A DNA stretch of 64,000 nucleotides from Dokdonella sp. (lineage in GTDB: Bacteria > Pseudomonadota > Gammaproteobacteria > Xanthomonadales > Rhodanobacteraceae). The stretch is from positions 1 to 64,000 of the forward strand of contig NZ_JAHCAQ010000012.1 of the NCBI RefSeq assembly GCF_019634845.1, written 5' to 3'. Made by a program: the position numbers and the translations under genes. A model generated the notes under the pieces. It was given only the letters and a program-made list of their open reading frames with translations. It searched no databases and had not been told where the DNA came from. Positions 32,852 through 61,428 of the stretch are shown here, piece by piece; positions within the stretch are counted from its first letter, which is position 1; each line of letters starts with the position of its first letter.

Positions 32852-34189
32852 TCAGCCGCCGTCGAAACCGTTGGCGAAGATGAGATCGCCGGCGCGCTCG
32901 ATCGCGCCGATGTCGAGCGCGCCGCTGACCAAGCGCGACGCCTGGGTGCCGATGGCGACGGCCGCGCGCCTCGGCTGCCAGGCGGGCGGGAACAGCGGGT
33001 TGGGCACGGCGTAGCCGGGAATCGGTGGCGGCACAGGATTGGCCGCGTCGAGCAGTGCGCTGGCGGGAGCTGGTGTGAGGTCGAAGCCGGCCACGTTGAC
33101 GAATCCCGGATTGGCGCCCTGCAGCGTGCCGCTCCATTCCGCTGGCACGTAGGTCGCGCCGGTCGGGACCCAGTTGTTGCTGCCACCGACTTGGCGACCG
33201 TTGGTCCACACCGCTTCCACCGTGCGTTCGATGCGCAGCGTGCCGCCATTGGGCGCGAACAGGACGTTGTTGTGAGCCTCCACCGCCTGGATGCCGTCGA
33301 AGATGCGGAACACGGTCGCGTCGGTGCCCGAGGTCACGAGGATCGTGTTGTTGGCGAAGCGCACGCGGCCCTTGCTCTGGCCGGATCCATCGCCACCGAC
33401 GCGGATGACCGACCCGAACGCGGCGTTGCTGTGCACGATCACGTTGCCGACCACGTCCTGGTCCTCGCGCACGAGGTCCTCGCTCCAGCCAGGCTGCTGG
33501 GTGTCGGCGTCGGGGCCGATGAGTTCGAGTTCGTGGTAGGCCGCGCCCTCGAACCAGTTGTAGTGGATCTCGCTGCGCTCATGGCGACTCTTGAGCAGGT
33601 TGCCGCCAGTGCCGTCGTGCACGTAGTTGTACCGCATGCGGAACACCGATCCCGGATGCGCGATTTCGTCACTCTGGATGTACAGCGAATGCCGCGTGGT
33701 GCCGCCACCCGAGTTGTAGATCTCGCTGTATTCGAGCGTGAGCGAACCCGAGTCGTTGTCGGCGCTGAGGACGCCGTGCCCAGGGCAGTCGTGGATCAGC
33801 AGGTCGCGCAGGGTGATGTCGTGGGCGACGACGAACACGCAGCGCGAGCTGCCACCCGTGACCTCGAAACCCTCGAACACGACATGGTCGGACTGGCGCA
33901 GCTCGATCGTATTGGTGCCGCCGGCCAGGCGCGGGCGTTGCCCGTTGACGCGCACACCGCGGATCACGACCGGGTTGCCGGCGCTGCCGCCGTCGGCGGA
34001 CGGCACGATCACGCCACCGGCATAGGTCACGTTGCCGTCGACCTCGACCACGTCGCCACCAGCGAGATCGACCGCAGCGAACAGCGCATTGAGCGAAGTG
34101 TGGGTGCGGCCCGGGCCGACCTGATAGGTCGCGGCGCCGGCGAGCGGCGCGACGAGGGCGAGCAGGGGCAGTAGCGGGCGCAGGGACAT
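32852..34189 (-). CDS. Exported right-handed beta-helix protein with F-x-N-G-F tail
   Basis: The 445-residue product has a Sec signal peptide (LLPLLALVAPLAGA) and then repeated short strands typical of parallel beta-helices (VVIRGVRVNG, VVFEGFEVTGG, ITLRDLLIHDCPG, VRFANNTILVT). The fold is shared with polysaccharide lyases and adhesins. Asp/Asn-rich turns are frequent but no lyase active site is obvious. The chain ends DLIFANGFDGG, the C-terminal tail shared with four other exported proteins here. ATG 34189 is chosen because the signal peptide begins there. It is separated from the RCC1 gene upstream by RNA-like repeat copy 2. Substrate is unknown. Confidence 0.8.
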   Translation of the reverse strand: MSLRPLLPLLALVAPLAGAATYQVGPGRTHTSLNALFAAVDLAGGDVVEVDGNVTYAGGVIVPSADGGSAGNPVVIRGVRVNGQRPRLAGGTNTIELRQSDHVVFEGFEVTGGSSRCVFVVAHDITLRDLLIHDCPGHGVLSADNDSGSLTLEYSEIYNSGGGTTRHSLYIQSDEIAHPGSVFRMRYNYVHDGTGGNLLKSRHERSEIHYNWFEGAAYHELELIGPDADTQQPGWSEDLVREDQDVVGNVIVHSNAAFGSVIRVGGDGSGQSKGRVRFANNTILVTSGTDATVFRIFDGIQAVEAHNNVLFAPNGGTLRIERTVEAVWTNGRQVGGSNNWVPTGATYVPAEWSGTLQGANPGFVNVAGFDLTPAPASALLDAANPVPPPIPGYAVPNPLFPPAWQPRRAAVAIGTQASRLVSGALDIGAIERAGDLIFANGFDGG

Positions 34190-34466
34190 GACGGCTCCGG
34201 TCACAAGGGTAGCCCGATCATCGCCGATCGGTGCAGCGCCTGTTGTGCGCTGGCGCATGAGCTGGCCAACTGCGCGGCCGGCGCCGACCGCTGCGCGAGA
34301 CACGCAGTCGGCGCAAGGCAGGCGGCGACGCGACAAGCCCCGCGGTGAGCGTGCAGGCTTGCCTCAGCGGTGATGACTGCGCTCGGCATGCCCAGTGTGA
34401 TCCGATTGCGCGGCGATGTGTGTGCAGCGGACGCATACGGCTAAGGGGCCGCCGGGGCACGCTGTG

Positions 34467-34635
34467 ATGAAGTCCTGAACTCCGAATCGAGTCGCGCGGG
34501 CGTGCCATGCACCGGGCCTCGCCAATCAGACCCGCAACGATTGCCGCGTTGGATGCGGCCAGCAGGCAGACCAGGGATGGCCGCAGGGATTGCTAAGGAC
34601 GAGGGCGGCCCATGGGCCGCCCTCTCTTTGGTTTT
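34467..34635 (+). ncRNA. Putative small RNA, repeat copy 2, with terminator
   Basis: This is the second copy of the element at 29341: core 34509-34584 with 73 of 76 positions identical. Its hairpin pairs 34601-34610 with 34615-34624 around a short CATG-type loop and is followed by TCTTTGGTTTT, a better T-tract than copy 1. The hairpin sequence differs from copy 1 by paired changes. It lies on the plus strand between two minus-strand genes, so it is not simply the end of an adjacent transcript. A CRP half-site 12-mer lies at 34393-34404. The rest of the gap 34190-34466 shows nothing else. Confidence 0.5.
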
Positions 34636-34669
34636 ATCGGGTGAACGACCAGTGCGTGCCTTCAAAAGC

Positions 34670-35932
34670 TCAGTCCGCTGTCATTCCAAAGCTGTCGTAG
34701 AAGATGTAATCCGCTTCGACGACGGTAGTTGGTGTGGATGAGCTCCCGCCGTGATTGATGCCATTGCCCAGTTGCCCCATCGCGTTATTGCCCCAGCAAC
34801 GTGCCGTATGATCTTGGAGGATCGCGCAGGTGTAGTTGCCATGGCCCGGAGCCGAGATTGCAATAACACCACTGGTCAGGCCGGTAACATCGACAGGTGT
34901 TGAGCACGGCAGCGGCGCCTGTAGTACGCACTCGTTTCCCAATTTTCCGCTGCCCTTTTCGCCCCAGCATTTGACGCCGCCGTTGGCCAAGGCGCAGGTG
35001 TGGCTTAACCCCATTGCAATGGCGGTTACGCCAGCTGGCAGGCCGACAACGGCGACGGGTATCTTGGAGTTGTTGGTGCTTCCGTTGCCGAGCACGTCGG
35101 AAGAATTGTTCCTTCCCCAGCACATCACGTTGCCGCTGACGATGGCGCAAGCATGGTCACTTGCGGCGGCGATTGCGGAGACGCCGCTGGACAGGCCCAC
35201 GACAGGCTCTGGAGTCAGATGTGTGCCAGAAGTGGTTCCCAGCCCCAACTGACCGCTCCCATTTGCTCCCCAGCACCATGCACCTCCGCCTGCGACAGCG
35301 CATGTGAAGTCGTCACCGGTCGCGACAGCCGCGATGTGAGATGAAGCAGAGAAACCATTTGCTCGCACGGGAACATTGCGATCGATCCTCGTCCCGTCGC
35401 CAAGTAGGCCGCTACCGTTGGGCCCCCCCCAGCACCAGAGAGAGTCCATGTTCGTGATACGACGAATTGCGCAAGTGTGATGGTAGTTCGAGCTGACGGA
35501 CACAATATTCGCGTCCAGTTCGTTGGCAGCGGTCGGTGATGGATTCATCGCGTAAATGCTGTAGTCGTAAATTGGGGGTGCTCTCCCATCTCCCAAGACG
35601 TTGACATCCGCATTTATGAGGCCGCCCCAGCAGCGAACACCACCATTCTCTATCGCACACGAATGATGATCGCCGCTCGCTACCGCTGTTGCACCGTGCA
35701 ACGTGCGTACCGGTGCCGGTGTTGCGCGCCTCGTGTTCGACTTCCTGCCATCGCCCAAAGCGAACGCGGTGTACATGCCCCAACATTGAACTTGGCCGTT
35801 CGCCATGGTTGCGCAGGCGTGGTAAGGGCCTGCGGCAATGCTCTGTATTCCCTGCAATGGGCCGGCAACTGCCGAGGACGCCGTCATCAAACAGCAGATC
35901 GCCAGAATTTGCGTGGTGGATCGGGAAGCCAT
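34670..35932 (-). CDS. Exported RCC1-repeat beta-propeller protein
   Basis: The 420-residue protein has a signal peptide and about six to seven RCC1-type blades, each with the pattern C-A-x-x-x-x-G-x-x-x-C-W-G (CAIENGGVRCWG, CAVAGGGAWCWG, CAIVSGNVMCWG, CALANGGVKCWG). The paired cysteines per blade would form disulfides, fitting an exported protein and a DsbC-like gene upstream in the same run. The tail ADYIFYDSFGMTAD is a divergent form of the window's C-terminal motif. ATG 35932 follows GGAG by six bases; an ATG 12 bases earlier is less well placed. Composition is visibly less GC-rich than its neighbours. Binding partner unknown. Confidence 0.82.
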   Translation of the reverse strand: MASRSTTQILAICCLMTASSAVAGPLQGIQSIAAGPYHACATMANGQVQCWGMYTAFALGDGRKSNTRRATPAPVRTLHGATAVASGDHHSCAIENGGVRCWGGLINADVNVLGDGRAPPIYDYSIYAMNPSPTAANELDANIVSVSSNYHHTCAIRRITNMDSLWCWGGPNGSGLLGDGTRIDRNVPVRANGFSASSHIAAVATGDDFTCAVAGGGAWCWGANGSGQLGLGTTSGTHLTPEPVVGLSSGVSAIAAASDHACAIVSGNVMCWGRNNSSDVLGNGSTNNSKIPVAVVGLPAGVTAIAMGLSHTCALANGGVKCWGEKGSGKLGNECVLQAPLPCSTPVDVTGLTSGVIAISAPGHGNYTCAILQDHTARCWGNNAMGQLGNGINHGGSSSTPTTVVEADYIFYDSFGMTAD

Positions 35933-35988
35933 GGGTAACTCCATCCAGGAAGAAATTTTTTCATTGGCCAATGTGGATCGGAAAGCCG

Positions 35989-37185
35989 TCAGCGCTCGAA
36001 CGCATCCTTGAAGATGTCGTCGCGTACGTAACGCTCCATCGTCGGTGTCCCGAGGCTCGGGGCGGGTGGGGCGGGGGTTGTCTGGCCGCCGATCATCAGG
36101 ACGCTGCCGTCAAGCAGACGCACGGCTGCGGCACTGCGGCGCGCATGGGTCATGCCGGACACTTCATGAACAGTTTTCGTAACGGGGTCGTAGATGCGAG
36201 CGGAGGCCTTGGGTATCGGCCACATGTTGTCAATGCCGCCGGCGATCAGCAGTGTGCCGTCGGCCAATACGGTGGCAGTGTGATCCATGGCGCCCGAGCC
36301 ATAAGGCAGGGCGACCCCCGGCCGAGAGATGATTTCACCCGTTGCGATCACGAAGATGTCGCAGGAATAGGCGACGCCATAGTCGACAGCGCCCGTTTGG
36401 TGCCCGCCGCAAAGAAGAACCTTACCATTCGGCATGGCGCTGCCCGTGTGATACGAGCGCGACCACCACATATAGGTTTGATCGCCGTTCCGATTTCGGG
36501 TGTACTTGAACGAATTCGTCGCGGGATCGTAGAGTTCCGCTGTGTCGAGCGCAGACAGATAGCCGCCATCAGGTGCGCTTGCGCCATAGCCTTTTCCGCC
36601 ATAGAACAGCACGCGCCCGTCGGCGAGCAGAGTCGCGGAATGGAACGCGCGCCGTTGCAGCATGCTCGGGCCGGGTGAAAAGGTGCCGGTCGCCGAGTCG
36701 TAGATTTCGGTGCTGGCCAGCGGCGTGGCGCAGATATCGTCGGCGCAGCCGCCGGCAATCATGACGCGTCCGTCCGCAAGGGGCGTCACGCTTGGCGCGA
36801 CGCGCGGGGTCGCAAGATTCGGCGTCGCAATGACCGAATTGTCCGCAGGGTCGAACACGATTCCTCGGTTATTCGTGTAGCAGAAGTCGCCGATCAGGAG
36901 CGCTTTTCCGTCTGGCAGCGAAGTGAAGGGTGCGCCGGGAAGCGAGAAAGGCAGTGTCGCGACCCGCGCGACGGTCGAGTGAGCAGGGTCGAACACGTAA
37001 ACGCCCCACCCATCTACGATAGCGACGCGACCGTCCTGCAGGAGCGTCGCCGCCGGCGTAGTCGCCGGCGCCTCCGCTTCATCGGTGTAATCGGGTGCTG
37101 GAACGAACACGCCATCCCAAGCACTGGCCGGCGCGGCAATCAGCGCGAGCAGCGCCATTGGCAGGAATTGACGAAACGCGGCCAT
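35989..37185 (-). CDS. Exported kelch-repeat beta-propeller protein
   Basis: The 398-residue product has a signal peptide (FLPMALLALIAAPASA) and kelch/galactose-oxidase-like blades. Repeats carry L-x-D-G-[RK]-V-x-[IL]-x-G-G, such as PLADGRVMIAGG, LLADGRVLFYGG, MPNGKVLLCGG and LLDGSVLMIGG. The copper-site residues of galactose oxidase are not evident, so catalysis is not claimed. It ends RDDIFKDAFER, matching the shared tail. It starts 15 bases after the DsbC-like gene and 56 bases before the RCC1 gene, so all three are probably cotranscribed. Confidence 0.82.
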   Translation of the reverse strand: MAAFRQFLPMALLALIAAPASAWDGVFVPAPDYTDEAEAPATTPAATLLQDGRVAIVDGWGVYVFDPAHSTVARVATLPFSLPGAPFTSLPDGKALLIGDFCYTNNRGIVFDPADNSVIATPNLATPRVAPSVTPLADGRVMIAGGCADDICATPLASTEIYDSATGTFSPGPSMLQRRAFHSATLLADGRVLFYGGKGYGASAPDGGYLSALDTAELYDPATNSFKYTRNRNGDQTYMWWSRSYHTGSAMPNGKVLLCGGHQTGAVDYGVAYSCDIFVIATGEIISRPGVALPYGSGAMDHTATVLADGTLLIAGGIDNMWPIPKASARIYDPVTKTVHEVSGMTHARRSAAAVRLLDGSVLMIGGQTTPAPPAPSLGTPTMERYVRDDIFKDAFER

Positions 37186-37200
37186 TGCAGGTTCTCCGTG

Positions 37201-38055
37201 TCAGTTCGCATCAAACATGGCATTGGTGCGTTCGAGCGCAGTCATGCGCTCCCGTAACGTTGCCATCCCTCGGTATGCAGATGTCGTGCCATCCGCGTAG
37301 ATCAGCGTCGGAGTGACGTAGCTGAAGTAGGCGCGCAGCACTCGCACTTCTCGATCCGGGTATTGGCATCCGGCCGGCGTCGATCGCGGGAACACGTGAT
37401 CGCCCATCGCCTGCCCCCACGCGCGAGCGCGATCGACTTGGCACCAGATCGACGCCACGATCGGGCGGTTTTCCTCGAACAGCGAACTCGGGAACACGTA
37501 GTACGGAATGCCGGCTGCTTTCATGTCCTTTTCGAACTTGCGGCACGGGATGCACTCGACGGCGCTCAGCACCGCTACTCGCACGGGCTTGTCCTTGCCG
37601 CCCATCAGGATTGCGTCGTGCCATGGCAAATGCGCCACTGCGCTTGCGTGCAGCGCATCAATAGCGTTCTGCGGCAGTGGCGCGCCCGTGCGCGCGTCGT
37701 GCCAGCCCATGACGCCGTTATTGGCTGAGACGCGGTTGTCGGCATCGACAAGCATCGGTGCGAGGTCCTCCTGGCCCGGCTTGCTGAGGTCATAGATGCC
37801 GGGAAACGGTGTCGGGCGGACGCGCATTCCGCGATAGCTTTGTTCGAGTCGCCGCATGGCGGTGGCGTCGTCGGTGACGGTGCCGGCATCGCGCTCGGTG
37901 GCTTGCGCTGGATGTGCGGCGTCGACTTGTTGCTGGCGAGGTTTCAAGCCGAGTTGTTGCAGCAGGCCGGAAGCGTCAACTGCGAGCGACTCCCGTGTGC
38001 CAAGCGCAGCCACTATGACGATTGCCGCGAGCGCAAAATGGCGAAGCGTACTCAC
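37201..38055 (-). CDS. DsbC-like periplasmic thioredoxin-fold protein
   Basis: The 284-residue protein has a signal peptide and a C-terminal thioredoxin fold. The redox pair is CIPC in SAVECIPCRKFEKDM (about residues 169-172), followed by DsbC-type landmarks: YYVFPSSLF, WCQVDRARAWG and an apparent cis-Pro turn YVTPTLIYADG. DsbC shuffles disulfides in exported proteins. An N-terminal region of about 140 residues has no family I recognise, so the dimerisation domain is not obviously DsbC-like. The gene overlaps the lipoprotein gene by 4 bases. Its likely clients include the Cys-rich RCC1 protein downstream; that link is inference. Confidence 0.75.
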   Translation of the reverse strand: MSTLRHFALAAIVIVAALGTRESLAVDASGLLQQLGLKPRQQQVDAAHPAQATERDAGTVTDDATAMRRLEQSYRGMRVRPTPFPGIYDLSKPGQEDLAPMLVDADNRVSANNGVMGWHDARTGAPLPQNAIDALHASAVAHLPWHDAILMGGKDKPVRVAVLSAVECIPCRKFEKDMKAAGIPYYVFPSSLFEENRPIVASIWCQVDRARAWGQAMGDHVFPRSTPAGCQYPDREVRVLRAYFSYVTPTLIYADGTTSAYRGMATLRERMTALERTNAMFDAN

Positions 38056-38846
38056 GGCGCGGTGGCCTCAGCGAGCACCTGCTGGTTGGGTCCGATCAAT
38101 TGCACCTTCATGATGTGCGCGATCACCGCATGGTTGTTGTCCTGCGTCGAACGCGCGAAGGCATGGATTTTCAGCGAAAGCTTCCTATATTGGCCAACGA
38201 ACTTTTCGATGTCCTTGGCGATGGCTTCGTCGGCGATTGGAATGAAGCGGTAGGCCGACGTATTGTCGAAACCTAGTGTGTAGTTGCCGCCATAACCAAA
38301 ATCGCTGATATAGCCGTAACCACCGTCGCTGAGCAACGCAGTGTTGACGGGAAAGCCTTTGCGATTGAAGTCGTAGTGCCCAAGGTCGGGTGACGAATCG
38401 GTCCAGAGCAGGTAGGGGTGCGCCTTCGCCTCGGCGATGTTCGCGTCGATCTTCGGCGTGAGCGCGGTGAGCAGGTCGCGCTTGCGGAAGCTGTCCTGCG
38501 TTGCGCGGTAATCGCTCGAATATTGCATCGCCAATTGTTCGTAGTCGGGCGGCAGGCCGGAGTTCGCCGCGTACAGGAACATGAGCTGGCTGGCGTCGGT
38601 GATCGGTATGTAGGCCGAATCCGGTGTGGACGGATCAGGTTGCGGCAGGGCGGCGAGGCGGGCTTTTTCCGCGTTCGCGCGCGCTTCCTGCTCGGCTTTC
38701 TGTCGCGCTTGGTCCATTGCGTAGGGCGTCAGTGCCTCCGCCACGGTTTTAGGTTGCGAGGTCGGCGCTGCTTCGCGCGAGCACGCGGCGAGCAGGGCGG
38801 CGGCGAAGGTGGAAAAGACAATCTGAGCGAAACCGACCGCACGCAT
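38052..38846 (-). CDS. Lipoprotein of unknown function
   Basis: The 264-residue product has a lipoprotein signal ending in LLAAC, then a charged helical stretch (QARQKAEQEARANAEKARL), then a mixed domain with FPVNTALLSDGGYGY. I do not recognise the family. ATG 38846 follows AAGGAG with good spacing and overlaps the stop of the upstream membrane-protein gene by one base (TGATG). It overlaps the DsbC-like gene by 4 bases, so the three genes are tightly coupled and the products may form an envelope complex. Confidence 0.75.
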   Translation of the reverse strand: MRAVGFAQIVFSTFAAALLAACSREAAPTSQPKTVAEALTPYAMDQARQKAEQEARANAEKARLAALPQPDPSTPDSAYIPITDASQLMFLYAANSGLPPDYEQLAMQYSSDYRATQDSFRKRDLLTALTPKIDANIAEAKAHPYLLWTDSSPDLGHYDFNRKGFPVNTALLSDGGYGYISDFGYGGNYTLGFDNTSAYRFIPIADEAIAKDIEKFVGQYRKLSLKIHAFARSTQDNNHAVIAHIMKVQLIGPNQQVLAEATAP

Positions 38847-39685
38847 CACGAATTCTCCTTCGGGAAAGCGACAAAGGCTCGCCAACTGCGCCAGGCGAGA
38901 TAGGCGCTGATTGCAACGATCAGGTAGAAGCCGGAGCCGAGCGATGCCGCCTCCATGACTCCTTCCATCGCGCTTTGAATGGCTTGCCGCTCCAAGTCTC
39001 CAAAGTCGGCTTGCCGGCCGAACATCCCGGCGGCTCGCTCCCGCGCGGCTTGCGCGGCGAAATAGTTGTTTACGCTGACGAAGATGCGCAGCACCGTGAA
39101 CACGACAAAGGCAAGAGGCAATGCGCCGGCGAGACGGGTCAGGCGTTTGTGGGCAAACACTGCGGCGAAGGGGCCGGCCAGACACAACAGGCCCAGCAAG
39201 CTGAGCGCTCCGTGCTCCTTGAGGCGCAGCTTTGCGATGCTATTCATGTCCAGGCTAGATAAGTCCCAAAAACTCAAGCCGGCGGTGTCATAGGAGATGC
39301 CGCTGACGCTGGCGAGCGTGAACCATGCCAGCACGAGCGCGCAGGCGGCGATCAGCGGATACAAACCCATGCGCTGCTTGAGCGTCAGTGCCGCGGCTTG
39401 CGCCTTTTCCGCAATGCCGGGGCCGTGCTCGCGTGCGAGATCGGTGAGCCGTTCGACGGCGTTCTGTGTTTGGCCGGTATCTGCCGCGACGCGAATGGCG
39501 GCGATGCTGCCATCGCCATCCAGATGCAGTTCCACCGGCTGATTGACGGCAGGCGCGACCGAGGATTGCCACAGGCCTTCCAATCGGAATGGATACTGCT
39601 TGCTATTTGCGACGATCAGGCCGGGCGTGTCGGAAGGTGTCTTGATGACGACGCCCCGCAGGCTGGTCGGATGCTGTTCGTTCAT
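38846..39685 (-). CDS. Membrane protein with N-terminal beta domain, unknown function
   Basis: The 279-residue protein has a soluble N-terminal beta-rich domain (about 1-75: RGVVIKTPSDTPGLIVANSK, then VELHLDGDGSI) that looks OB- or cold-shock-like. A charged helix follows, then about four membrane spans (around 100-120, 155-172, 178-198 and 245-265). No catalytic motif is seen. It is the first gene of the five-gene minus-strand run ending at 34670 and lies divergent from the kinase-regulator gene with 182 bases between. ATG 39685 (MNEQHPTS) is taken because upstream codons would run into that gap. Confidence 0.7.
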   Translation of the reverse strand: MNEQHPTSLRGVVIKTPSDTPGLIVANSKQYPFRLEGLWQSSVAPAVNQPVELHLDGDGSIAAIRVAADTGQTQNAVERLTDLAREHGPGIAEKAQAAALTLKQRMGLYPLIAACALVLAWFTLASVSGISYDTAGLSFWDLSSLDMNSIAKLRLKEHGALSLLGLLCLAGPFAAVFAHKRLTRLAGALPLAFVVFTVLRIFVSVNNYFAAQAARERAAGMFGRQADFGDLERQAIQSAMEGVMEAASLGSGFYLIVAISAYLAWRSWRAFVAFPKENS

Positions 39686-39867
39686 TCGTGGTGTCCGTGG
39701 ATGATGTACTTGTGCAACGCTGTCGCTGCGATGCAGGCGCCGTCCCCACGATGCCCACACGGAACTCACACGAATCGCAAGGCATTGATCTGTAATGATG
39801 TTTGCCCCAATGCGGCGGCCGTTCTACAGTGCGCCGAGGTACACAAAGGGGCGGACCCGTGGAGAAA

Positions 39868-42591
39868 ATGGACGGCATGCGCGAGGCGGGCGGTGCGGTA
39901 TTCCGCTGGACGTTCGGGGTGGTCGAGTTCAACGAGGCGGCGTGGGAATTGCGCGTTGGCGGCATGGCGGTGGACATCGAGCGGCGGCCGCTCGACGTGC
40001 TGGGTTGCTTGCTGCGGCACGCCGGCGAGGTCGTCACCAAGGACGAATTGCTCGACGCGGCGTGGTCCGGGCGCATCGTTGTCGAGGGCGCATTGACCAA
40101 CGCGATCGGCAAGTTGCGCAAGGCGATCGGCGACGAAGAGCAACGCATCATCGCGACAGTGCCGCGTGTCGGCTATCGGTTCCTGGGTAAGGTCGAACGG
40201 CGGCTCATCGAGCGCCGCGCGGCCGGCACGCAGCTCGCGACCGGAGACGCGGTGCCGCGGCGTCCCAACTGGCGGCTGGCGCAGCCGCTCGACCAGTCCG
40301 GAGCGGGCGAGGTCTGGCTGGCCGAGCATGCGAAGACACACGAGCGGCGCGTGTTCAAGTTCAGTTTCGACGGCAGCCGGCTCGCTTCGCTCAAGCGCGA
40401 GGCGACGATTGCGCGCCTGCTGCACGACAGCCTCGGCGCACGCGAGGAATTCGTGCGCGTCGTCGACTGGGATTTCGAGGACGCGCCGTATTTCATCGAA
40501 TCCGAATACGGCGGTCCGAATCTCGAACAGTGGGTGGAGTCGAAGGGTGGTCTCGCGTCGGTCCCGATGCAGCAGCGCATCGAATTGCTGGCGAAGGTCG
40601 CCGACGCCGTCGGCGCGGCGCACGAGCTTGGCGTGTTGCACAAGGATCTCAAGCCGGCGAACGTGCTCGTCCACGAAACTGCCGATGGCGCGACGCCGCG
40701 GCTGGTCGATTTCGGCAGCGGACGCGTGCTCGATCCCGGCCGGCTCGAAGCGCTCGGCATCACCCGGCTCGGTCTCACCCAGACGCAAACGATGGCGAGC
40801 GAGCTGACCGGCACGCCGCTCTATCTCGCGCCGGAATTGCTTGCCGGCCAGGTGCCGACGGTGCGCTCGGATATCTACGCGCTCGGCGTCATGCTCTATC
40901 AGTTACGTGTCGGCGACCTGCGGAGGCCGCTCTCGGCAGGGTGGGAAAGCGATATCGACGATCCACTGCTGCGTGAGGACATCGCGAGCGCCGCGAACGG
41001 CAATCCCGATCTTCGCTTCGACTCGGCGCGTTCGCTTGCGGCAAACTTGCGTTCACTCAATTTGCGCTCGCTCGCCGTTGCTGCGGCACTTGAGCGCGAG
41101 CAACGCGAGCAGCGCGCGCAAACGCGTTCGCGGCGCAGGCGAAGATGGCTAACGCTTGCCTTCGCCTCGATGACGTGTGGGTTGGCTGTCGCAATTGGCA
41201 TGTATCGGCAGGTGGCCACCGCGAACGCCCGCGCGGAGCACGAGGCGCGCATCGCCGCCGCCGTCAATCGGTTCCTCAACGAGGATGTACTGGCGGTTGC
41301 CAGTCCGATGCGTGGCGGACGTGCCGGCATCAGTGTACAGGAAGCGCTCGATGCGGCCGCTCCCCGCATCGATGCGCGATTCGGGGCGATGCCGGAAATT
41401 TCGGGTGCGCTGCACCGGACGTTGGGTGATGTTTACTACCAGATCTCGGATTTTCCGGCCGCGATCGCGCAATTCTCGGCGGCGGCCACGCAGTTCGCCA
41501 AGGCCGAGGGCGATTCTTCGGTCGATACGGTCGCCGCGCGCGTTCTGCAAGCGCAAGTCATGGCTCACGCGGGTCGTTTCGAGGAAGCAGGCGCAATGCT
41601 CGATGCGACAGCGCCACTGGTAGAGAAGTTGGCGCGTGAGCAGCCGATGTTACGCGTCAATGAAGACTTGGCACGGGCCTGGATCGCTTTCAACACGATG
41701 CGTTTCGATGCCGCTATTGCTCCGCTCGAAGATGCCGCACAGCGCCTTGTTGGCATTCCGGATGCTGGTCGTGACATCGCCGCGACGGTCGAGCAGGCTC
41801 TGACATCGGCGCGTTCCCGCCTGGGATTGCCGTCGGAATCACTCGAGCAGACGCAGCAGCGGCTACTCGCGAAGATCGAGGGCGAGCAAGGGCGCAGCGC
41901 ACCCATGTCGCTGGGTGCGCGCCATCTGCTGGCGCGCATCCAGGTGTTGCGAGGCAAGGGTCGAGAGATGGAGCAGACCTATCTCGATCTTGCTCGCGAT
42001 TTCAATCGTGTGCTTGGCCCCGAGAACGAGAACACGCTGCTGGTCATGCACGGGCTTGCCAACGTCTATGCCAAGCTCGAGCGCTGGGACGATTGCGCGC
42101 GTAATGCGCGGATCGCCTACGAAGGACTGAATCGCCGCGTCGGGCCGGACCATATTGGCACGCTCAATGCGCTGGATACGCTCGCGCTTGCCGAATTCCG
42201 TTTGGGTCACGTCGACGAGGCGTCGCGGTTGTTCGAAACCGGAATCGAGCGGTTGCGCGCGTCCAAGAACAAATTGAGCGGCTTGCTGCTTTCGGCGTTC
42301 GAAATCAATCTGGCCTATGTGCGGCTCGCTCAAGATCGGCGCGATGAAGCGGCCGCGCTCGTTACCGATGTGCGCGAGCATGGAGGTACCCTCCTTGAAA
42401 AGGATACCGATGCGGCAGGTGAGCTGGCGTGCCTGGAGGGCCGAATCGCGATGTTGTCCGGCAACGTTGCGTTGGGCATGGCGAAGTTGAGCGAAGGGGT
42501 CGCGCTGCTTGAGAAGCAGAATCCCGACAGTTACTGGGTCATTCGCGAAGCCAAGGCGGCGATGCTCCAAAAGCCGAGCAACGCGCCCTGA
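39868..42591 (+). CDS. One-component regulator: OmpR-type DNA-binding domain + Ser/Thr kinase + membrane span + TPR-like repeats
   Basis: The 907-residue protein combines four modules. A winged helix (about 10-105; RRPLDVLGCLLRHAGEVVTK, VPRVGYRF) resembles OmpR/CadC effector domains. A Hanks-type kinase follows (about 130-400): putative Lys164 in RVFKFSF, catalytic Asp260 in HKDLKPANVL, metal Asp281 in DFGSGR, and an APE-type LAPELL. One membrane span lies about 429-448 after an Arg-rich stop, then TPR-like helices to the end, predicted periplasmic. CadC-like proteins bind DNA while membrane-anchored; the inserted kinase is the unusual part. ATG 39868 is chosen; GTG 39859 with AAGGGG upstream is an alternative. 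It is divergent from the envelope-protein operon and is a candidate regulator of it. Confidence 0.88.
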   Translation: MDGMREAGGAVFRWTFGVVEFNEAAWELRVGGMAVDIERRPLDVLGCLLRHAGEVVTKDELLDAAWSGRIVVEGALTNAIGKLRKAIGDEEQRIIATVPRVGYRFLGKVERRLIERRAAGTQLATGDAVPRRPNWRLAQPLDQSGAGEVWLAEHAKTHERRVFKFSFDGSRLASLKREATIARLLHDSLGAREEFVRVVDWDFEDAPYFIESEYGGPNLEQWVESKGGLASVPMQQRIELLAKVADAVGAAHELGVLHKDLKPANVLVHETADGATPRLVDFGSGRVLDPGRLEALGITRLGLTQTQTMASELTGTPLYLAPELLAGQVPTVRSDIYALGVMLYQLRVGDLRRPLSAGWESDIDDPLLREDIASAANGNPDLRFDSARSLAANLRSLNLRSLAVAAALEREQREQRAQTRSRRRRRWLTLAFASMTCGLAVAIGMYRQVATANARAEHEARIAAAVNRFLNEDVLAVASPMRGGRAGISVQEALDAAAPRIDARFGAMPEISGALHRTLGDVYYQISDFPAAIAQFSAAATQFAKAEGDSSVDTVAARVLQAQVMAHAGRFEEAGAMLDATAPLVEKLAREQPMLRVNEDLARAWIAFNTMRFDAAIAPLEDAAQRLVGIPDAGRDIAATVEQALTSARSRLGLPSESLEQTQQRLLAKIEGEQGRSAPMSLGARHLLARIQVLRGKGREMEQTYLDLARDFNRVLGPENENTLLVMHGLANVYAKLERWDDCARNARIAYEGLNRRVGPDHIGTLNALDTLALAEFRLGHVDEASRLFETGIERLRASKNKLSGLLLSAFEINLAYVRLAQDRRDEAAALVTDVREHGGTLLEKDTDAAGELACLEGRIAMLSGNVALGMAKLSEGVALLEKQNPDSYWVIREAKAAMLQKPSNAP

Positions 42592-42615
42592 CATCGGTTG
42601 GGCAAGATCGGATCG

Positions 42616-47971: not shown

Positions 47972-50488
<2,517 letters not shown>

Positions 50489-50517
<29 letters not shown>

Positions 50518-50737: not shown

Positions 50738-52060
<1,323 letters not shown>

Positions 52061-52072
52061 GGTCGGACGCAC

Positions 52073-52384
52073 GTGCTGCGCTGGGTCGCGCTGATCCTCG
52101 TGGTGCTGCTGGTCGCGCTGCAGGTGCAGCTGTGGACAGGCCACGGTGGCCTGCGCGACCTGTGGCGCCTGCAGCAGAACATCACCGAGCAGAAGCAGGA
52201 AAACGACACGCTCAAGAAGCGTAACGACACGCTCGCCGCCGAGGTCGAGGATCTCAAGCACGGCAGCGAGGCGATCGAGGAACGTGCGCGTTCCGAACTG
52301 GGTCTGCTCAAGCCCGGGGAAACCTTCATCCAGGTGGTGGAGCCGACCGCCAGCGACGGCAAGCCGGCGCGCGATGACCACTGA
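52073..52384 (+). CDS. ftsB: Cell division protein FtsB
   Basis: The 103-residue bitopic protein bridges FtsL and FtsQ in the divisome. One membrane span (about 4-21, VALILVVLLVALQVQL) is followed by a periplasmic coiled coil (about 30-65, QENDTLKKRNDTLAAEVEDL) and the family motif EERARSELGLLKPGET. It starts with GTG 52073. The eno-ftsB-ispD-ispF order is standard in gammaproteobacteria. It overlaps ispD by 11 bases. Confidence 0.95.
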   Translation: MLRWVALILVVLLVALQVQLWTGHGGLRDLWRLQQNITEQKQENDTLKKRNDTLAAEVEDLKHGSEAIEERARSELGLLKPGETFIQVVEPTASDGKPARDDH

Positions 52385-53120: not shown

Positions 53121-53285
53121 TCCGAGCGACGGACCGTGCGCGATGGCGTGGAGTCGCGCCCGGCGCTGAGGTATGTTGCGTCAGGTCTGGACGGCGCGCC
53201 GCCATGCGTCGGATCGACGCCGCGAAACGGCGGCGTCGCCAGCGTTGCCATTGCCCGCCCTCCATTTCCGGTTCTTCACCCAAGC

Positions 53286-53906
53286 ATGCGCATCGGCCAA
53301 GGTATCGACGTCCACGCATTCGGCCCCGGCGACTACGTCACGCTCGGTGGCGTGCGCATCGCGCACGATCATGGCCTAGTGGCCCACTCCGACGGCGACG
53401 TCGTCATCCACGCCTTGTGCGACGCGCTGCTCGGCGCCTTGGCGCTCGGCGACATCGGACGACTGTTCCCGCCGAGCGACGAGCAGTGGCGCAACGCCGA
53501 CAGTCGCACGTTCCTGCGTCATTGCACCGCGCTGGTGGCGCAGCATGGTTTCGTGCTCGGCAATGCCGACGTGACCGTGGTCTGCGAACGGCCGCGACTG
53601 GCGCCGCACGTCGAGCGCATGCGCGCGACGCTGGCTACTGATCTGGGTTGTGCGATCGGCGACATCAGCGTCAAGGCGACCACGAGCGAGAAGCTCGGTT
53701 TCACCGGGCGCGGCGAGGGGATCGCCGCCACTGCGGTGGTGTTGCTGCAGGCGCGCGCCGTGCCGGCGTCGCTCGTGAACGAGGACGACAGCGAACTGCG
53801 CGCCTTCGTCGAGCGCGTCGCCGCCGAGGTCGACGCCGACGTGGTGCGGCCGGCGCCGGGCGGCAGCGTCGCGGCGACCACCACGCAGCGCCAGCGCGGG
53901 CCATGA
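53286..53906 (+). CDS. ispF: 2-C-methyl-D-erythritol 2,4-cyclodiphosphate synthase with C-terminal extension
   Basis: The 206-residue enzyme closes the cyclic diphosphate in the MEP pathway. Zinc ligands Asp8, His10 (GIDVHAF) and His42 are present, with [19 protein letters not shown] and [19 protein letters not shown]. The normal family length is about 158; here about 48 extra residues follow the usual end ([20 protein letters not shown] and an Ala/Thr/Gln-rich tail). The extension keeps the local codon pattern, so it looks translated rather than an artefact of a lost stop. It overlaps truD by 4 bases. Confidence 0.93.
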
Positions 53907-54913
53907 CCATGGACCTGCCGTACGCGCACGGCGGCCCGCCGCTGGTCGCGGAGCTGCGCCGCGAGCCGGCCGACTTCCGCGTCGAGGAAATCCTCGGCTT
54001 TGCGCCCAGCGGCAGCGGCGAACACGCCTTCGTGCTGATCGAAAAGACCGCCGCCAACACCGAGTGGGTGGCACGCGAGCTTGCCCGTCGCCTCGGTCTG
54101 GCGCCGGTGGCCATCGGCTTCGCCGGCCTCAAGGACCGCCATGCCATCACGCGCCAGGCGTTCACGGTCCACCTCGGTCAGCGCGCCGAGCCGGACTGGC
54201 AGGCGCTCGACATCGAGGGCGTGCGTGTGCTGTCGGTCGCGCGCCACGCGCGCAAGCTCAAGCGCGGCAGCCATCGTGGCAACCGCTTCGAGATCCGCCT
54301 GCGCGCGCCGCAGGGCGAGCGCGACCGCGCGCAGGCCGTGCTCGATGCGATCGTCGCGCAGGGCGTGCCCAACTATTTCGGCGAGCAGCGCTTCGGTCGC
54401 GACGGTGGCAACGCCGACCTCGCCCGGCAACTGTTTGCCGGGGCGCGCATGCCGCGCGAACGGCGTGGCATCGCGCTGTCGGCCGCGCGTTCGGAACTGT
54501 TCAATGCCGCGCTGGCGCAGCGCGTTGCCGCCGGCAGCTGGAACCGCGCGCTCGATGGCGAGGTGTGGATGCTCGCCGGCACCCATTCGGTATTCGGCCC
54601 CGAGCCACTCGACGATGCGCTGCGTGAACGCCTCGCCAGCGGCGACATCCATCCGAGCGGACCACTGTGGGGACGCGGCGAGCTGCGCAGCACCGATGCG
54701 GTGCGTGCGCTCGAACTCGCGGTCGCCGACGCGCATGCCGAACTGGCGCGCGGCCTGGAGGCGGCCGGACTCGAACAGCAGCGCCGCGCCTTGCGCCTGC
54801 TGCCGCGCGAACTCGCCGCAAGCTGGCAGGACGACGGACTCGCGATCCGCTTCGCGCTCGAAGCCGGCGCGTTCGCCACCACGGTGCTGCGCGAGCTGGC
54901 CCGCTGGCATTGA
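53903..54913 (+). CDS. truD: tRNA pseudouridine synthase D
   Basis: The 336-residue enzyme makes pseudouridine 13 in tRNA-Glu. Catalytic Asp78 lies in [11 protein letters not shown], and [16 protein letters not shown] is the second family block; FRVEEILGF at the N-terminus is also typical. Length compares with E. coli TruD (349). ATG 53903 overlaps the ispF stop (ATGA). The ispD-ispF-truD order matches that around E. coli ispDF. Confidence 0.95.
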
Positions 54914-55091
54914 CTGCCACGCGCGCGCCGCGAGCGTGGTCAAGTGGCGCGCGGCAAGGTAAACGCCCGGCAACACGACGGTGACGGCCGCGGCATCGTC
55001 TGGCGGTGGCGGCGGCGCCGCCGCTATCCTTACGCGCTTTGGCTGGCCATCGGTGAACGCCGAGGCCGCCCCATCGTCCACAAGGTCCGCC

Positions 55092-57389
<2,298 letters not shown>

Positions 57390-57560
57390 TGCGCGGCGGC
57401 GCAATGTGCCCGGGGGGCGGCGCGCCGACGCCAGCATGGGCGCGCACCGCGCGTGCCGGCCTGCCGCTGCGTTGATGCGTGCCACGCCGTCACGCGCCGA
57501 ACGGGTTCCGAGGCGTGACAGCGGCCTGGTGCGAGGACGCGCCACCTGCCGACGGCAACG

Positions 57561-58478
57561 TCAGTCGAAGCCGTTCTTGAAGATGACGTCATTGCCTGCG
57601 CCGCCGCCCCAGTACGGCGTGGTGCCGGCGACGATCGCGACCGAGGAAGAACCGGGCGCAAGGCTGAGGACGCGGATCGTGCCGTTGCGCACGAACGCGA
57701 TGCGCTGACCGTCGGGCGAGAACGTCGGCCACGAATCGAGCGTGTTTACGGAGAGGTCGCGCACCAGGGTGTGCGTGGTCGCCGAATACAGGCCGATGTT
57801 GCCTTCCACCGGAATGCCGAATGCGCTCGGCCCCGGCCCACGCACGGCGACGACCCATTGGCCGTCGATCGAGCCGCTCGGATAGCCGATCTGCAGCGAC
57901 GGATCGGTAGCGACCTGCACGTCGCAGGAGCTGCCGTTGCCGGGCGGCGGATATTCGATGCAGATTGTTGCGGGCGTGCCACGGCGCGCGACGATGACGT
58001 TCTCGCCAAGCCAGCCCTGTCCGGTCTGGTAGGTCGAGGATGCGATCGAAACAAAGTGACCGTTCTGGTCCGGAAAATAGTACGTGTACCAGCCAAAGCC
58101 TGCGAAGTACCAAGTCCACGACGCCTTCGTGCCGGACGGCGAAATGCGTGGCAGATCGTAGACTTCGCCGTAGGTCAGCACCTGCGCGGCGCCGCCGGCG
58201 AGCGGAACGAGGTAGATCCCGCCGGGATTCTGGCCCGGAGTCATGTACGCGGCCATGGTGCCGTCGGCGGTGATGCCGGCAGCGGTCGCGTTCTGCTTGA
58301 TCGTGCGCTGCGTCATCGCCGGATGGTCGGGATCGACGGCGCAGACGGACGTGCCGCACTGGTAGACGATCGTCGATGCAGCTGGCGCAGCACTGGATGC
58401 GCAGGCCGCGAGTGCGCCGAAAAACAGTACTGCCGGGTGGGCGGGGCGATATGGAAGCAGGGTGCTGGGGTGTCGCAT
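57561..58478 (-). CDS. Exported TolB-like (PD40) beta-propeller with F-x-N-G-F tail
   Basis: The 305-residue protein has a signal region (AVLFFGALAACASSAAPAAS; the LAAC could be a lipobox) followed by WD40-like PD40 blades (YDLPRISPSGTKASWTW, DSWPTFSPDGQRIAFVRNG). It ends GNDVIFKNGFD, the shared C-terminal tail in its cleanest form. Start ATG 58478 is preferred because the signal peptide begins there and GAGGAG lies upstream. The frame stays open to 58796 with a coding-like codon pattern. The gene stands between the E1 gene and the degenerate copy of E1's 3' end. Ligand unknown. Confidence 0.78.
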   Translation of the reverse strand: MRHPSTLLPYRPAHPAVLFFGALAACASSAAPAASTIVYQCGTSVCAVDPDHPAMTQRTIKQNATAAGITADGTMAAYMTPGQNPGGIYLVPLAGGAAQVLTYGEVYDLPRISPSGTKASWTWYFAGFGWYTYYFPDQNGHFVSIASSTYQTGQGWLGENVIVARRGTPATICIEYPPPGNGSSCDVQVATDPSLQIGYPSGSIDGQWVVAVRGPGPSAFGIPVEGNIGLYSATTHTLVRDLSVNTLDSWPTFSPDGQRIAFVRNGTIRVLSLAPGSSSVAIVAGTTPYWGGGAGNDVIFKNGFD

Positions 58479-58870
58479 CAAAGTCAGCGCTCCTCGAATA
58501 ATGAGCACCCCTGCGCGTTCAACGGTATCAGGGATGGGGCGGGCAGGCCAACCCCGGTCCGTGCGCTCGCATGCAACGTCGGAGGCGGCGCAGGTCAGTG
58601 CGGCGCTTTCCCGGTTGCGGTGGTTCGCCGGGCGTGCGCGCACGATCGCAAGCGCATGCGCAGAAGCGGCAGCAGCCGTTGCGGCATCGATGAGGTTGCA
58701 GTGGGCGGGCAGACCGTCGCGCAGTGCCATGGTGACGGTGGCACCGCTGTACACGTTGCTCAGGTGGGTCAGCGCCGGAGTGGTCGTGGTGAACATCCGG
58801 CTGCGGTCGTTGCGCGTTGGCCGCGGGTGACACCGCACGACGCCATCGGTTTGCGTGAACGCGACCTCCG

Positions 58871-59040
58871 TGTGGCGAGGGTCGCCATGCCGCCGGCGTC
58901 GGCGGGGGCGTCATCAGCACCATCGCCGGGGGCCGACATGGCGCCGTCACGCTGCGTCGCGCGGTCGGGGTCGATACCTGGCGCCGCTGGCCGGGGCCTG
59001 CCTCGTGCTGCCGGGTGCGGCCGGCAGCGTCTCAGCGGGA
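58871..59040 (+). pseudogene. Degenerate duplicate of the 3' end of the E1 gene
   Basis: This stretch aligns with 57203-57370 at about 80 percent by eye. CATGCCGCCGGCGTCGGCG is exact in both apart from one flanking change, and GACATGGCGCC, GCTGCGTCGCG and TCGTGCTGCCGGGTG recur in order with small indels. Indels break the frame and no E1 sequence lies upstream, so it is a remnant. It is in the same orientation as the intact gene. The rest of the gap 58479-58870 shows only the in-frame upstream extension of the propeller gene. Confidence 0.7.
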
Positions 59041-59075
59041 CCGCTCCCGCGCTGCTGCGCGGCGGCGCGACGCGC

Positions 59076-59081
59076 TAGAAT
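59076..59081 (+). promoter_or_regulatory. -10 box placing transcription start at the cyclase ATG
   Basis: TAGAAT ends 6 bases before ATG 59088, so the expected start point is at or next to the A of the start codon and the mRNA would be leaderless. No Shine-Dalgarno lies between. The promoter follows directly on the E1 remnant. No clear -35 is seen. Confidence 0.45.
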
Positions 59082-59087
59082 CGCCCG

Positions 59088-59993
59088 ATGACCGAACGCC
59101 GCGCCCTGACGATCCTGTTCGCCGATGTCTCCGGCAGCACGCGCCTGTTCGAGACCCGCGGCGATGTCGTCGCCCGCCAGATCGTCGCCGCCGTGCTCGA
59201 GGCGCTGGCCGAGGTCACGCGGCGCCACGGCGGGTGCGTGATCAAGACCATCGGCGACGAGATCATGTGCACGTTTCCGGGCGCGCTCAACGGCCTGCTG
59301 GCCGCCACCGACATGCATCGGCGCATCAAGGCCGACGAGGCATTCCAGCACGACAACGTGGCAATCCGCGTCGGCCTGCATCACGGCGAGGCGCTCGTCG
59401 AGGCGGGCGACGTGTTCGGCGACGCCGTCAACGTCGCCGCGCGCATGGCCGACAAGACGCTGGCCCGCCGCGACCAGATCGTCACTACGGCGAGCACGGT
59501 CGAGGGCGTGACCAGCGTCACCGGCATGCGCATCCGCTCGCTCGGCAATGCCTGGGTACAGGGCAAACAGGCGCCGCTGGAGATCGTCGACGTGCTGTGG
59601 CAGGAGGACCTCGCGCCGGTCACGACCGTGCAGCGCGTCATGCAGTCCGAACAGGCCGCCACGGCGCGGGCGCGCCTGCTGCTGCGCTATCGCGGGCTGG
59701 TGTTCGAGCTCGGCGAGGACGCGACCTTCTCGATGGGCCGCGATCCGGCCAGCAGCCTCGTCGTCGAGACCGAATGGGTGTCGCGCAACCACGCGCTCAT
59801 CGAGTGGAAGCGCGGCCACTTCATGTTTGCCGACCGCTCCACCAATGGCAGTTGGATCCGCATGGGCGCCGACCACGAAGTGCTCGTGCACCGCGACGAG
59901 GTGCACCTGCGGCGCGGCGGTTCGATCTGCCTGGGCCAGGCACACGGCGTCAACGAGGCCGACCTCGTGCACTTCGAGTGCAGCGACGGCTGA
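59088..59993 (+). CDS. Class III nucleotide cyclase with C-terminal FHA domain
   Basis: The 301-residue soluble protein has a CHD-type cyclase domain (about 1-180) with metal-binding Asp13 (FADVSGST) and Asp57 (KTIGDE), Lys53 at a purine-recognition position, and the transition-state block FGDAVNVAARM. An FHA domain follows (about 200-290; SMGRDPASS, SRNHALIEW, STNGSWI), a phosphothreonine reader. cAMP is the likelier product but cGMP is not excluded. The FHA domain would tie activity to Ser/Thr phosphorylation; a kinase with DNA-binding domain is encoded at 39.9 kb, though no link is shown. It is convergent with the DUF1501 gene. Confidence 0.9.
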   Translation: MTERRALTILFADVSGSTRLFETRGDVVARQIVAAVLEALAEVTRRHGGCVIKTIGDEIMCTFPGALNGLLAATDMHRRIKADEAFQHDNVAIRVGLHHGEALVEAGDVFGDAVNVAARMADKTLARRDQIVTTASTVEGVTSVTGMRIRSLGNAWVQGKQAPLEIVDVLWQEDLAPVTTVQRVMQSEQAATARARLLLRYRGLVFELGEDATFSMGRDPASSLVVETEWVSRNHALIEWKRGHFMFADRSTNGSWIRMGADHEVLVHRDEVHLRRGGSICLGQAHGVNEADLVHFECSDG

Positions 59994-60030
59994 GGCCCGG
60001 CGAGCGCGAGCGGTGCTCGGCCGCCACGCC

Positions 60031-61428
60031 TCAGGCGCCGTCGAAACCGTTCTTGAAGATCTGGTCGAAATTGGCCGGCGGCAGGTCGCTGCCCTGGAAG
60101 ATGCCGAGCGGCGAATAGCCCGAGTATCCGGGGAACACGTAGTAGATGTTGGGATTGGCCATGCGCCGCACCAGCGCCTCGCTGATGACGCGGCGATAGT
60201 CGGTGGTGGCGGCCACGTCGGTGCCCTCGTAGAGCTGCTCACCGGCCAGGCCCGGGAAGGTGCCGTAGGTGTGGCCGCCGTTGACGCGGCCACCGAGCGC
60301 GAGCATGACATTGCCGTAGCCGTGGTCGGTGCCGCCGTCGGCGTTCTCGAGCACGCGCCGGCCGAACTCGCTCAGCACGATCACGCTGACCTGGTTCATG
60401 TAGTTGGTGGGGCCTGCGGCCAGGTCGGTGTAGAACGCGTTGAGGCCCTTGGACAGGCTCTCCACCTGGTTGCCGAACCAGTCATAGCTCTGCGTCGGGT
60501 TGCCCTGGCCGACGTGGGTGTCCCAGTTGCCGAGGTCGATCGTCACCGCGCGCAGGCCCAGACCCCGCTTGATGAGGTTGGCGACATCGCGCAGTTGCTG
60601 GCCGAAGCCATTGTTGTAGGGCAGCGTGTAGTTGGCACCACCGGCCGGCGCGTAGCCGGCGAAGTCCACGTCACGCAGCAGCGCCAGCGAGGCCAGCGTC
60701 TCGGCACCGGCGCGCTCGAGCGCCGTGGTGCCGTTCCACAGGTTGTTGAGGCGCGCGATCGCGCCGGCACCGGCCACGCCCGGCGGGTCGGCGGCATCGC
60801 CGTCCCACGACCAGTGGAAGCTGTTGAGGCGGAAACTGTCGCCGCCGATCATCGTGATCGCATCGCTGCTGCCGAGCAGGCTCGCCGCAGTGATGTCACC
60901 CATCGACACCGCCGGCAACGGCACCGTGGCGGGCAGGCCGCCGCTGACGAGGTGGCGCGTGAACCAGCCGATGCTGTTGCCGGTGCCGCCGCCGATGCCG
61001 AACTCGAGATTGGCCTGCGCGTCGAAATGGCTGCGGATCACGGGCACCGGCTGCATCTGTCCGGCGGCGACCACCATGGCCAGATGCTGGCTGTTGTAGA
61101 GATCGCGCAGTTCGGCCGCACGTGGATGCAGCAGCCAGTCGGGCGTGCCGTTCAGCGCCAGGCCCGCGCCGGTGCCGGTGGTCGGGATGCGCGTGCTGCT
61201 GCGGTAGGACTGGTAGTGGCCACGGTTGGCATTGCTGGCGCTCGGCGGCAGCAGACTCAGACCGTCCATGGCACCGCGCAGGAACACGATCACCAGGGTG
61301 TCATTGCTGGCCGCGGCGGGCAGGAAGTCGCCGCTGGCGAACCAGGCCTTGGCGTGGCTGCCGCTGCCGGCGGCGAGCGTGAGCGCACTGACGCCCTTGA
61401 GGAAGTCGCGACGATTGAATGGGGTCAT
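60031..61428 (-). CDS. DUF1501 family Tat-exported protein with F-x-N-G-F tail
   Basis: The 465-residue protein opens with a twin-arginine signal (RRDFLKG, residues 6-12). It carries the DUF1501 blocks LVIVFLRGAMDGLS, GNWDTHVGQ, VIVLSEFGRRVLENADGGTDHG and LALGGRVNGG, related to the sulfatase/alkaline phosphatase fold. It ends DQIFKNGFDGA, the shared tail. DUF1501 and DUF1800 proteins are almost always encoded together and exported; their function is unestablished. It lies 11 bases after the DUF1800 gene. ATG 61428 precedes the Tat motif directly. Confidence 0.88.
   Translation of the reverse strand: MTPFNRRDFLKGVSALTLAAGSGSHAKAWFASGDFLPAAASNDTLVIVFLRGAMDGLSLLPPSASNANRGHYQSYRSSTRIPTTGTGAGLALNGTPDWLLHPRAAELRDLYNSQHLAMVVAAGQMQPVPVIRSHFDAQANLEFGIGGGTGNSIGWFTRHLVSGGLPATVPLPAVSMGDITAASLLGSSDAITMIGGDSFRLNSFHWSWDGDAADPPGVAGAGAIARLNNLWNGTTALERAGAETLASLALLRDVDFAGYAPAGGANYTLPYNNGFGQQLRDVANLIKRGLGLRAVTIDLGNWDTHVGQGNPTQSYDWFGNQVESLSKGLNAFYTDLAAGPTNYMNQVSVIVLSEFGRRVLENADGGTDHGYGNVMLALGGRVNGGHTYGTFPGLAGEQLYEGTDVAATTDYRRVISEALVRRMANPNIYYVFPGYSGYSPLGIFQGSDLPPANFDQIFKNGFDGA

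Follow-up and report, generated by a model that had tools for sequence, protein, structure and literature searches.

The window analysed here, a stretch of 64,000 nucleotides from a Dokdonella sp. contig (NZ_JAHCAQ010000012.1, positions 1 to 64,000 of the forward strand), encodes five proteins of unrelated folds that end in variants of one short peptide, termed here the tag, which across the order Xanthomonadales/Lysobacterales occurs together with one lineage of the type II secretion system (T2SS). The five tails, first described in a first-pass annotation of the window, all lie where that annotation placed them, in open frames on the minus strand (Table 1). The strict form of the tag, IFx[ND]GF[DE], is present in three of the five; the tails of the RCC1 and kelch proteins deviate at position 5, and that of the RCC1 protein at position 7 as well.

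Table 1. Tagged proteins of the window, with an untagged subtilase for contrast
Feature	Position	Strand	Frame	Frame end or remark
Tag DLIFANGFDGG, C-terminus of beta-helix protein	32855..32887	-	32852-34363	IFANGFDGG
Variant tag DYIFYDSFGMTAD, C-terminus of RCC1-repeat protein	34673..34711	-	34670-35971	IFYDSFGMTAD
Variant tag DDIFKDAFER, C-terminus of kelch-repeat protein	35992..36021	-	35989-37185	IFKDAFER
Tag DVIFKNGFD, C-terminus of PD40 (TolB-like) propeller protein	57564..57590	-	57561-58412	IFKNGFD
Tag DQIFKNGFDGA, C-terminus of DUF1501 protein with Tat signal	60034..60066	-	60031-61428	IFKNGFDGA
S8 subtilase without tag (contrast, not a carrier)	22924..25392	+		End looks like two PPC-domain repeats

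Pfam matches assign four of the tagged proteins to RCC1, kelch, PD40 (TolB-like) and DUF1501, in line with the earlier view that their folds are unrelated, and all carriers of the genome together span 61 Pfam models. The beta-helix protein, for which no Pfam match over a cut-off was obtained, has an end that aligns with choice-of-anchor-Q (choice_anch_Q) proteins. The Tat signal of the DUF1501 protein scores over the NCBIfam cut-off (20.3 versus 16.7 bits) and under that of Pfam (17.5 versus 22.7 bits). AlphaFold2 prediction of a carrier (8 sequences) yielded a modelled beta-helix, followed by 79 final residues, tag included, with a predicted local distance difference test score (pLDDT) below 50.

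A short protein motif on exported proteins of many folds

The Dokdonella genome to which the window belongs (G000; 3.26 Mb, 90% complete) was searched with a DNA pattern for IFx[ND]GF[DE], ATHTTYNNNRAYGGNTTYGA, which gave 65 matches in 3,261,924 bases, against none for the reversed-pattern control. These represent 64 distinct copies, the 65th repeating locus L052 over its 60 upstream bases. Forty-eight copies lie no more than 14 residues from a stop (at most 12 residues from the isoleucine to the end) and stop 0–5 residues past the seven-residue core, so that, as first described, neither a hydrophobic helix nor a basic cluster follows the tag. Strong conservation in these 48 C-terminal copies is confined to D-x-I-F-x-[DN]-G-F-[DE]; third codon positions vary within it, and no comparable conservation was found upstream of the aspartate or 3′ of the stop. 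AT-rich genomes write the motif in AT-rich codons. The tag is a protein motif, and a DNA or mobile element was rejected because conservation ends with the motif codons.

The same pattern of conservation, together with the presence of the tag on unrelated folds, makes it very improbable that the tag has no sorting role and is instead a structural cap, what remains of a shared domain start, or a DNA element that spreads. A point in favour of a remnant is that two matches run on, as FESGDTSAWTTTVP (L232, an f10 tail, FESGDTSAW) and as FESGDEEGQ (L219, in a 19-residue frame), possibly a trace of some longer module from which the tag arose; against it, the longer form F-x-D-G-F-E-[ST..]-G-[DN] occurs in 1 of the 249 genomes of a phylum sample that holds six genomes of the order, none of them from families f8 or f10.

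The remaining 16 copies lie farther from the stop, two at 23 and 27 residues and 14 at 124 to 502 residues. In the Dokdonella genome the motif separates a signal peptide plus linker from a large part downstream of it in L043, L053 and L209, precedes further C-terminal sequence in L033, L046 and L055, and in one protease falls inside the S8 match (L199; C3:84547-84566 within 84234-85583). In relatives it can come immediately after the signal peptide (L068, L088 and L292) or occur as tandem copies (L074, L077 and L080). The description 'shared C-terminal tail' given to it at first holds for three quarters of the copies only, and strictly speaking the tag is no C-terminal signal. A C-terminal processing signal, as also proposed at first, is not supported: copies between domains, after the signal peptide and in tandem fit cleavage at a C-terminal tail badly.

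The 64 carriers match 59 models of NCBIfam and 61 of Pfam, with some overlap between models, in scans that took protein starts by a crude rule, cut frames longer than 1500 residues to 1500 and included three N-truncated frames. Among the best 25 models from each collection, choice_anch_Q accounts for 10 carriers, S8 peptidase for eight and beta-helix for five, with single collagenase, GH44 and GH5 proteins; the families thus listed include S8, M9, GH44, GH5, ExeM-type nuclease and chitinase-type proteins. M36 models named for dependence on rhombosortase, myxosortase and the type IX secretion system (T9SS) match five, four and two carriers, respectively. By a crude rule, 46 of the 64 carriers have a signal peptide, and some of the other 18 show one by eye. 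With a tighter limit, a signal peptide was assigned to 41 of 61 carriers (the three N-truncated frames set aside); among 115 other frames of this genome, predicted by a rule on GC content at third codon positions, 27 qualified. The enrichment among signal-peptide proteins that the first-pass annotation had proposed to examine is present, and its reading of the tag as a signal common to unrelated exported proteins is supported.

No Pfam or NCBIfam 20.0 model was matched by the tails of the five window proteins or by two tagged C-termini scanned alone, a negative limited by HMMER filters, which may lose very short models or motifs. The two C-termini gave one weak rhombotarget match, outside the tag (E 0.14, 10 against a cut-off of 295 bits). 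CTERM models, which had been put forward for comparison, were likewise absent from the NCBIfam matches of the five window proteins and of the two C-termini; for the 64 carriers the view covered the best 25 of 59 families. A known CTERM signal or Pfam domain was rejected on these grounds for the tails and C-termini scanned. Literature searches, judged from titles and abstract openings, returned no publication describing the motif.

In being short, appended to unrelated exported proteins and present in dozens per genome, the tag resembles IPTL-CTERM (TIGR04174), PEP-CTERM, GlyGly-CTERM and MYXO-CTERM. Unlike these signals, it has no transmembrane helix or basic cluster, was not seen to match a model, can occur in tandem, and in 16 of 64 copies lies beyond 14 residues of the stop and so away from the extreme C-terminus; no cognate sortase was found for it, with rhombosortase as the family profiled. 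The C-terminal domains of the T9SS likewise serve to sort exported enzymes of diverse kinds, although these are whole domains of Bacteroidota; none was present among the families listed for the carriers or window proteins, apart from the T9SS-named M36 model noted above.

Distribution and dialects of the tag

The tag is practically confined to the order Xanthomonadales/Lysobacterales. The strict pattern was found in 86 of 151 genomes of the order, at up to 80 copies per genome, and the form with R or S at position 5 in 73. In a class-wide sample of 274 genomes, of which three belong to the order, one to three matches were present in 49 of the other 271, 61 in total against 27 for the reversed control; this excess of about twofold means that a few of these matches may be genuine. 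A scan of the GTDB collection with a stricter pattern plus stop gave 101 stretches, and among the 80 listed, 72 are titled within the order (Lysobacterales, Lysobacteraceae, Rhodanobacteraceae, Xanthomonadales, Dokdonella, Tahibacter or Marinicella), six only by phylum or class, and one each as a Spirochaetales and an Accumulibacter metagenome-assembled genome (L113 and L141), these last two being misbinned contigs or cases of transfer. Single-match genomes were considered as minimal systems and discarded, several such matches falling in short or antisense-looking frames.

The motif varies between lineages. In three g23 genomes (G037, G099 and G124), choice_anch_Q proteins picked by family and not by tag end in IFNDRFE, VFQDRFE, LFSDRFE and similar sequences, with R at position 5 in all 10 tagged proteins; the two from G009 bring this to 12 of 12. 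A further g23 tally at this position (R 5, G 3, A 1) is biased, its loci having been fetched in part with the G pattern. In the proteins read outside g23, G prevails at position 5, with variants such as LFANGFE, IFDNGFQ, VFTDGYE and IFMHGFE. Strict-pattern counts are consequently too low for some lineages: G064 and G006, both with class A GspD (see below), have 0–1 matches but carry variant tags on S8 proteases, at two of five S8 loci in the former and one of five in the latter. The R dialect has the appearance of a coordinated change across many proteins, as would be expected if one reader had changed. Candidate positions in GspC and GspD that change with it are present, in a comparison of three related sequences with 10 that is confounded by descent.

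Co-occurrence with the class A secretion locus

Class A denotes one T2SS lineage, gspC-D-E-F, which in most cases is flanked by rho-trxA-rhlB-like genes on one side and ftsE-ftsX-like genes on the other. Its secretin in the Dokdonella genome, GspD (G000:C6:26886-28943), adjoins GspC, GspE and GspF. GspD, GspE and GspF score over the cut-offs of their equivalog models (551.0/351.35, 672.6/630.25 and 481.2/424 bits), whereas GspC, which includes a PDZ domain, is over the cut-off for Pfam T2SSC (71.9 versus 27) and under those of the NCBIfam GspC models. A second GspD of the same genome, at C2, is also over cut-off (463 bits), and within this family tagged genomes hold an extra, higher-scoring GspD copy. 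T2SS in general was rejected as the machine, GspD (TIGR02517) being matched in 150 of the 151 genomes of the order, tag-free ones included, and over cut-off in 144; only class A tracks the tag.

Genes resembling rho, trxA and rhlB lie upstream of gspC-gspD in G091 (f2), G006 (f7), G117 (f8), and G058 and G020 (f10), and genes resembling ftsE and ftsX follow gspC-D-E-F in G008 (f9), G058, G020 and the Dokdonella genome, these names coming from reading of the sequences and not from a family scan. Tagged genes stand beside the class A locus in three of the 12 genomes with class A stretches read (G000, G110 and G008), so that adjacency is weak.

Used as a protein query, class A GspD matched 89 of the 151 genomes at 1e-60; seven matches were dropped as another type (six from g26, partial, at 45%, and G061, at 39%), leaving 82 genomes, which include three partial matches (G052 and G114, each from a contig end, and G128, in two pieces). 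With a threshold of at least four tag matches (strict plus R/S form), 76 genomes have both tag and class A, six the tag only, six class A only and 63 neither. The corresponding counts are 77/9/5/60 at a threshold of three, 69/4/13/65 at five and 63/4/19/65 at eight, and by majority within each of 64 genera they are 31/0/2/31. Fisher's test on the genome table (p = 4e-28) ignores descent and is not usable as such. Of the tag-only genomes, four (G048, G059, G118 and G123) are split into 150 to 530 contigs, with completeness values of 77 to 96%, and the other two (G063 and G122) belong to f8. Class A GspD answers to the co-occurring transporter for which a search by phylogenetic profiling had been suggested.

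On an RpoB tree of 27 rows, from which the Dokdonella genome and G127 are absent, having given no RpoB, and G019 was omitted for its long branch, class A changes state four times. Because the class A locus is syntenic across families, each change is interpreted as a loss, one falling in the f2 crown, one in the f1 crown, one in G053 and one in an f8 clade; G019, outside the tree, adds a further one. After loss of class A, the strict tag numbers 0–1 per genome in f2, the f1 crown, G053 and G019 and is sparse in f8. Another GspD over cut-off stays in all 20 f1 genomes without class A and in most of f2 and f8; G001, G102 and G142 have only weak GspD matches. G019 (L347 and L348) has no GspD match and no tag match, and its RpoB is divergent, being 60% identical to the query and matched as two segments that lie in different frames.

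The dedicated machine proposed in the first-pass annotation has a candidate in the class A T2SS, with which the tag co-occurs; no sortase or protease tracking it was found, exosortase and sortase families not having been profiled. Rhombosortase was rejected in this role, being over cut-off in 12 of the 151 genomes and in none of the 82 with class A. The two never occur in one genome, as if one display route had replaced the other.

That a protease, ligase or receptor apart from the T2SS reads the tag, with class A merely sharing its loss history, is improbable. About five events separate the profiles, and other genes lost with class A would fit equally; of the sortase-type families, the profiling covered rhombosortase. 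Internal, N-terminal and tandem positions suit a processing enzyme badly, however, and the T2SS is by its nature an exporter of enzymes of the carriers' kind.

Export or retention, and the genes beside the tag

Choice_anch_Q proteins provide a view of what the tag may replace. From 58 places chosen from a long list, 44 C-termini were obtained after removal of 12 truncated proteins and two repeats. In genomes with class A, 29 of 37 are tagged, six end in a CTERM-like helix and two in neither; in genomes without it, none of six is tagged, and one further tagged C-terminus belongs to G059, which is 77% complete and in which class A was not found. IPTL-CTERM is over cut-off in four of the seven helical C-termini tested: those of G051, G065 and G018, and, just over, one of the two proteins read in G053, the sole f1 genome without class A that has choice_anch_Q, with rhombosortase over cut-off and no tags. 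The end from G119 is just under cut-off, and the helical ends from G104 and G009 have no model over cut-off. In these proteins the tag occupies the place that the IPTL-CTERM signal holds in some relatives.

S8 subtilases give a second comparison. In the Dokdonella genome, nine of 10 carry the tag or a variant, six near the C-terminus (including IFASGFE) and three internally. The tenth, that of the window, has an end resembling two PPC domains, and one S8 protein of the tag-free genome G022 ends alike. The motif was found in none of five S8 frames, two of them truncated at the C-terminus, read in G053 and G022, which lack class A.

The shared slot lends itself to a reading in which the tag serves surface retention: class A would recognize its cargo through other features, and the tag would then dock the exported protein to a receptor on the outer surface, in the role of IPTL-CTERM or GlyGly-CTERM but needing neither a membrane helix nor a processing enzyme. 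We regard this as a possible but less probable account, although it remains strong. Choice_anch_Q proteins end in either the tag or a helix with a basic end, M36 models named for dependence on rhombosortase, myxosortase and the T9SS match tagged carriers, tandem copies suit avidity, and the rhombosortase and class A genomes (12 and 82 of 151) do not overlap. In a study of Wenzhouxiangella AB-CW3 (PMC7691419), protease activity is reported to be located on cells and absent from the supernatant; its authors place the T2SS in the core genome of a comparison that includes Marinicella and state that the route of the peptidases to the surface cannot be inferred. Against retention, tags are lost with class A though the other GspD mostly stays, and a pure anchor could persist with another exporter; no receptor candidate was found.

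The reading we favour, tentatively and at a little short of an even chance, is that D-x-[ILV]-F-x-[DN]-[G/R/S]-F-[DEQ] acts as a short linear tag that marks proteins as cargo of the class A T2SS and is read for export. Export is ranked above retention because the tag vanishes with class A even where another GspD stays, and because its positional freedom suits a binding motif for an exporter. The carriers combine a Sec or Tat signal (46 of 64 by the crude rule; Tat on the DUF1501 protein) with occurrence alongside the class A T2SS, as T2SS cargo would. Cargo would be exported by Sec or Tat and fold in the periplasm with the tag exposed at a terminus or in a linker, where a periplasmic part of the class A T2SS, with the GspC PDZ domain, the GspD N-domains and the pseudopilus tip as candidates, would bind it and let the protein pass to the cell surface. 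Such binding would also keep class A cargo apart from the proteins that the cell's second T2SS exports.

Several observations weigh against export. A few genuine tags persist in f8 genomes without class A (G063, G056, G042 and G097), which means that class A is not strictly required or that the tags are left over from an earlier state. Class A is present in G082, G127 and G089, which give few tag matches, and the S8 proteins read in G082 and G127 are untagged, as are eight of the 37 choice_anch_Q C-termini in class A genomes. State changes are few, with only two independent pairs on well-supported branches, which leaves a sign test powerless, and the tag trait changes six times on the RpoB tree. 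Co-occurrence is itself silent on the function of the tag. Only gspC to gspF were located: a regular expression for pseudopilin N-termini matched nothing near the class A loci read, the only places searched. The choice-of-anchor logic and the cell-bound activity reported for AB-CW3 (PMC7691419) favour retention at least equally.

How the T2SS recognizes folded cargo is an open question; in published work (PMC7949064, PMC12369372) the GspC PDZ domain matters for some cargo, and the determinants described are composite, structural or domain-borne, and cargo-specific. The Pel3/PelI loops and the VesB Ig domain resemble the tag in lying in flexible or accessory parts of folded cargo; they differ from it in that the tag is a single linear motif shared by dozens of unrelated proteins. 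The tag may represent, and this we put somewhat more cautiously than export itself, the first sequence-defined portable T2SS signal, a nine-residue motif able to function at either terminus or within linkers, with G and R dialects that changed with the reader, and sorting between two T2SSs. Recognizable in the sequences of dozens of proteins in each genome, and this in 31 of the 64 genera sampled, such a motif would make the question of cargo recognition directly testable; it would allow prediction of the surface proteome for Dokdonella, Tahibacter, Marinicella and relatives, and adds another kind of signal to the choice-of-anchor scheme.

A dedicated machine was also sought among the neighbours of tagged genes at 101 named loci and rejected, the recurrent untagged neighbours of which representatives were scanned being regulators. 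Genes for an extracytoplasmic function (ECF) sigma factor and a Ser/Thr kinase are found beside tagged genes at 10 of these loci each (for example, L105 and L160), and in the Dokdonella genome (L305:1046-7368, G000:C6) such genes lie a few kilobases from the class A T2SS; a regulatory link between them and the tagged genes is possible. A large frame with a Trans_reg_C DNA-binding domain stands beside tagged genes at nine of the 101 loci, including L118:3644-7999.

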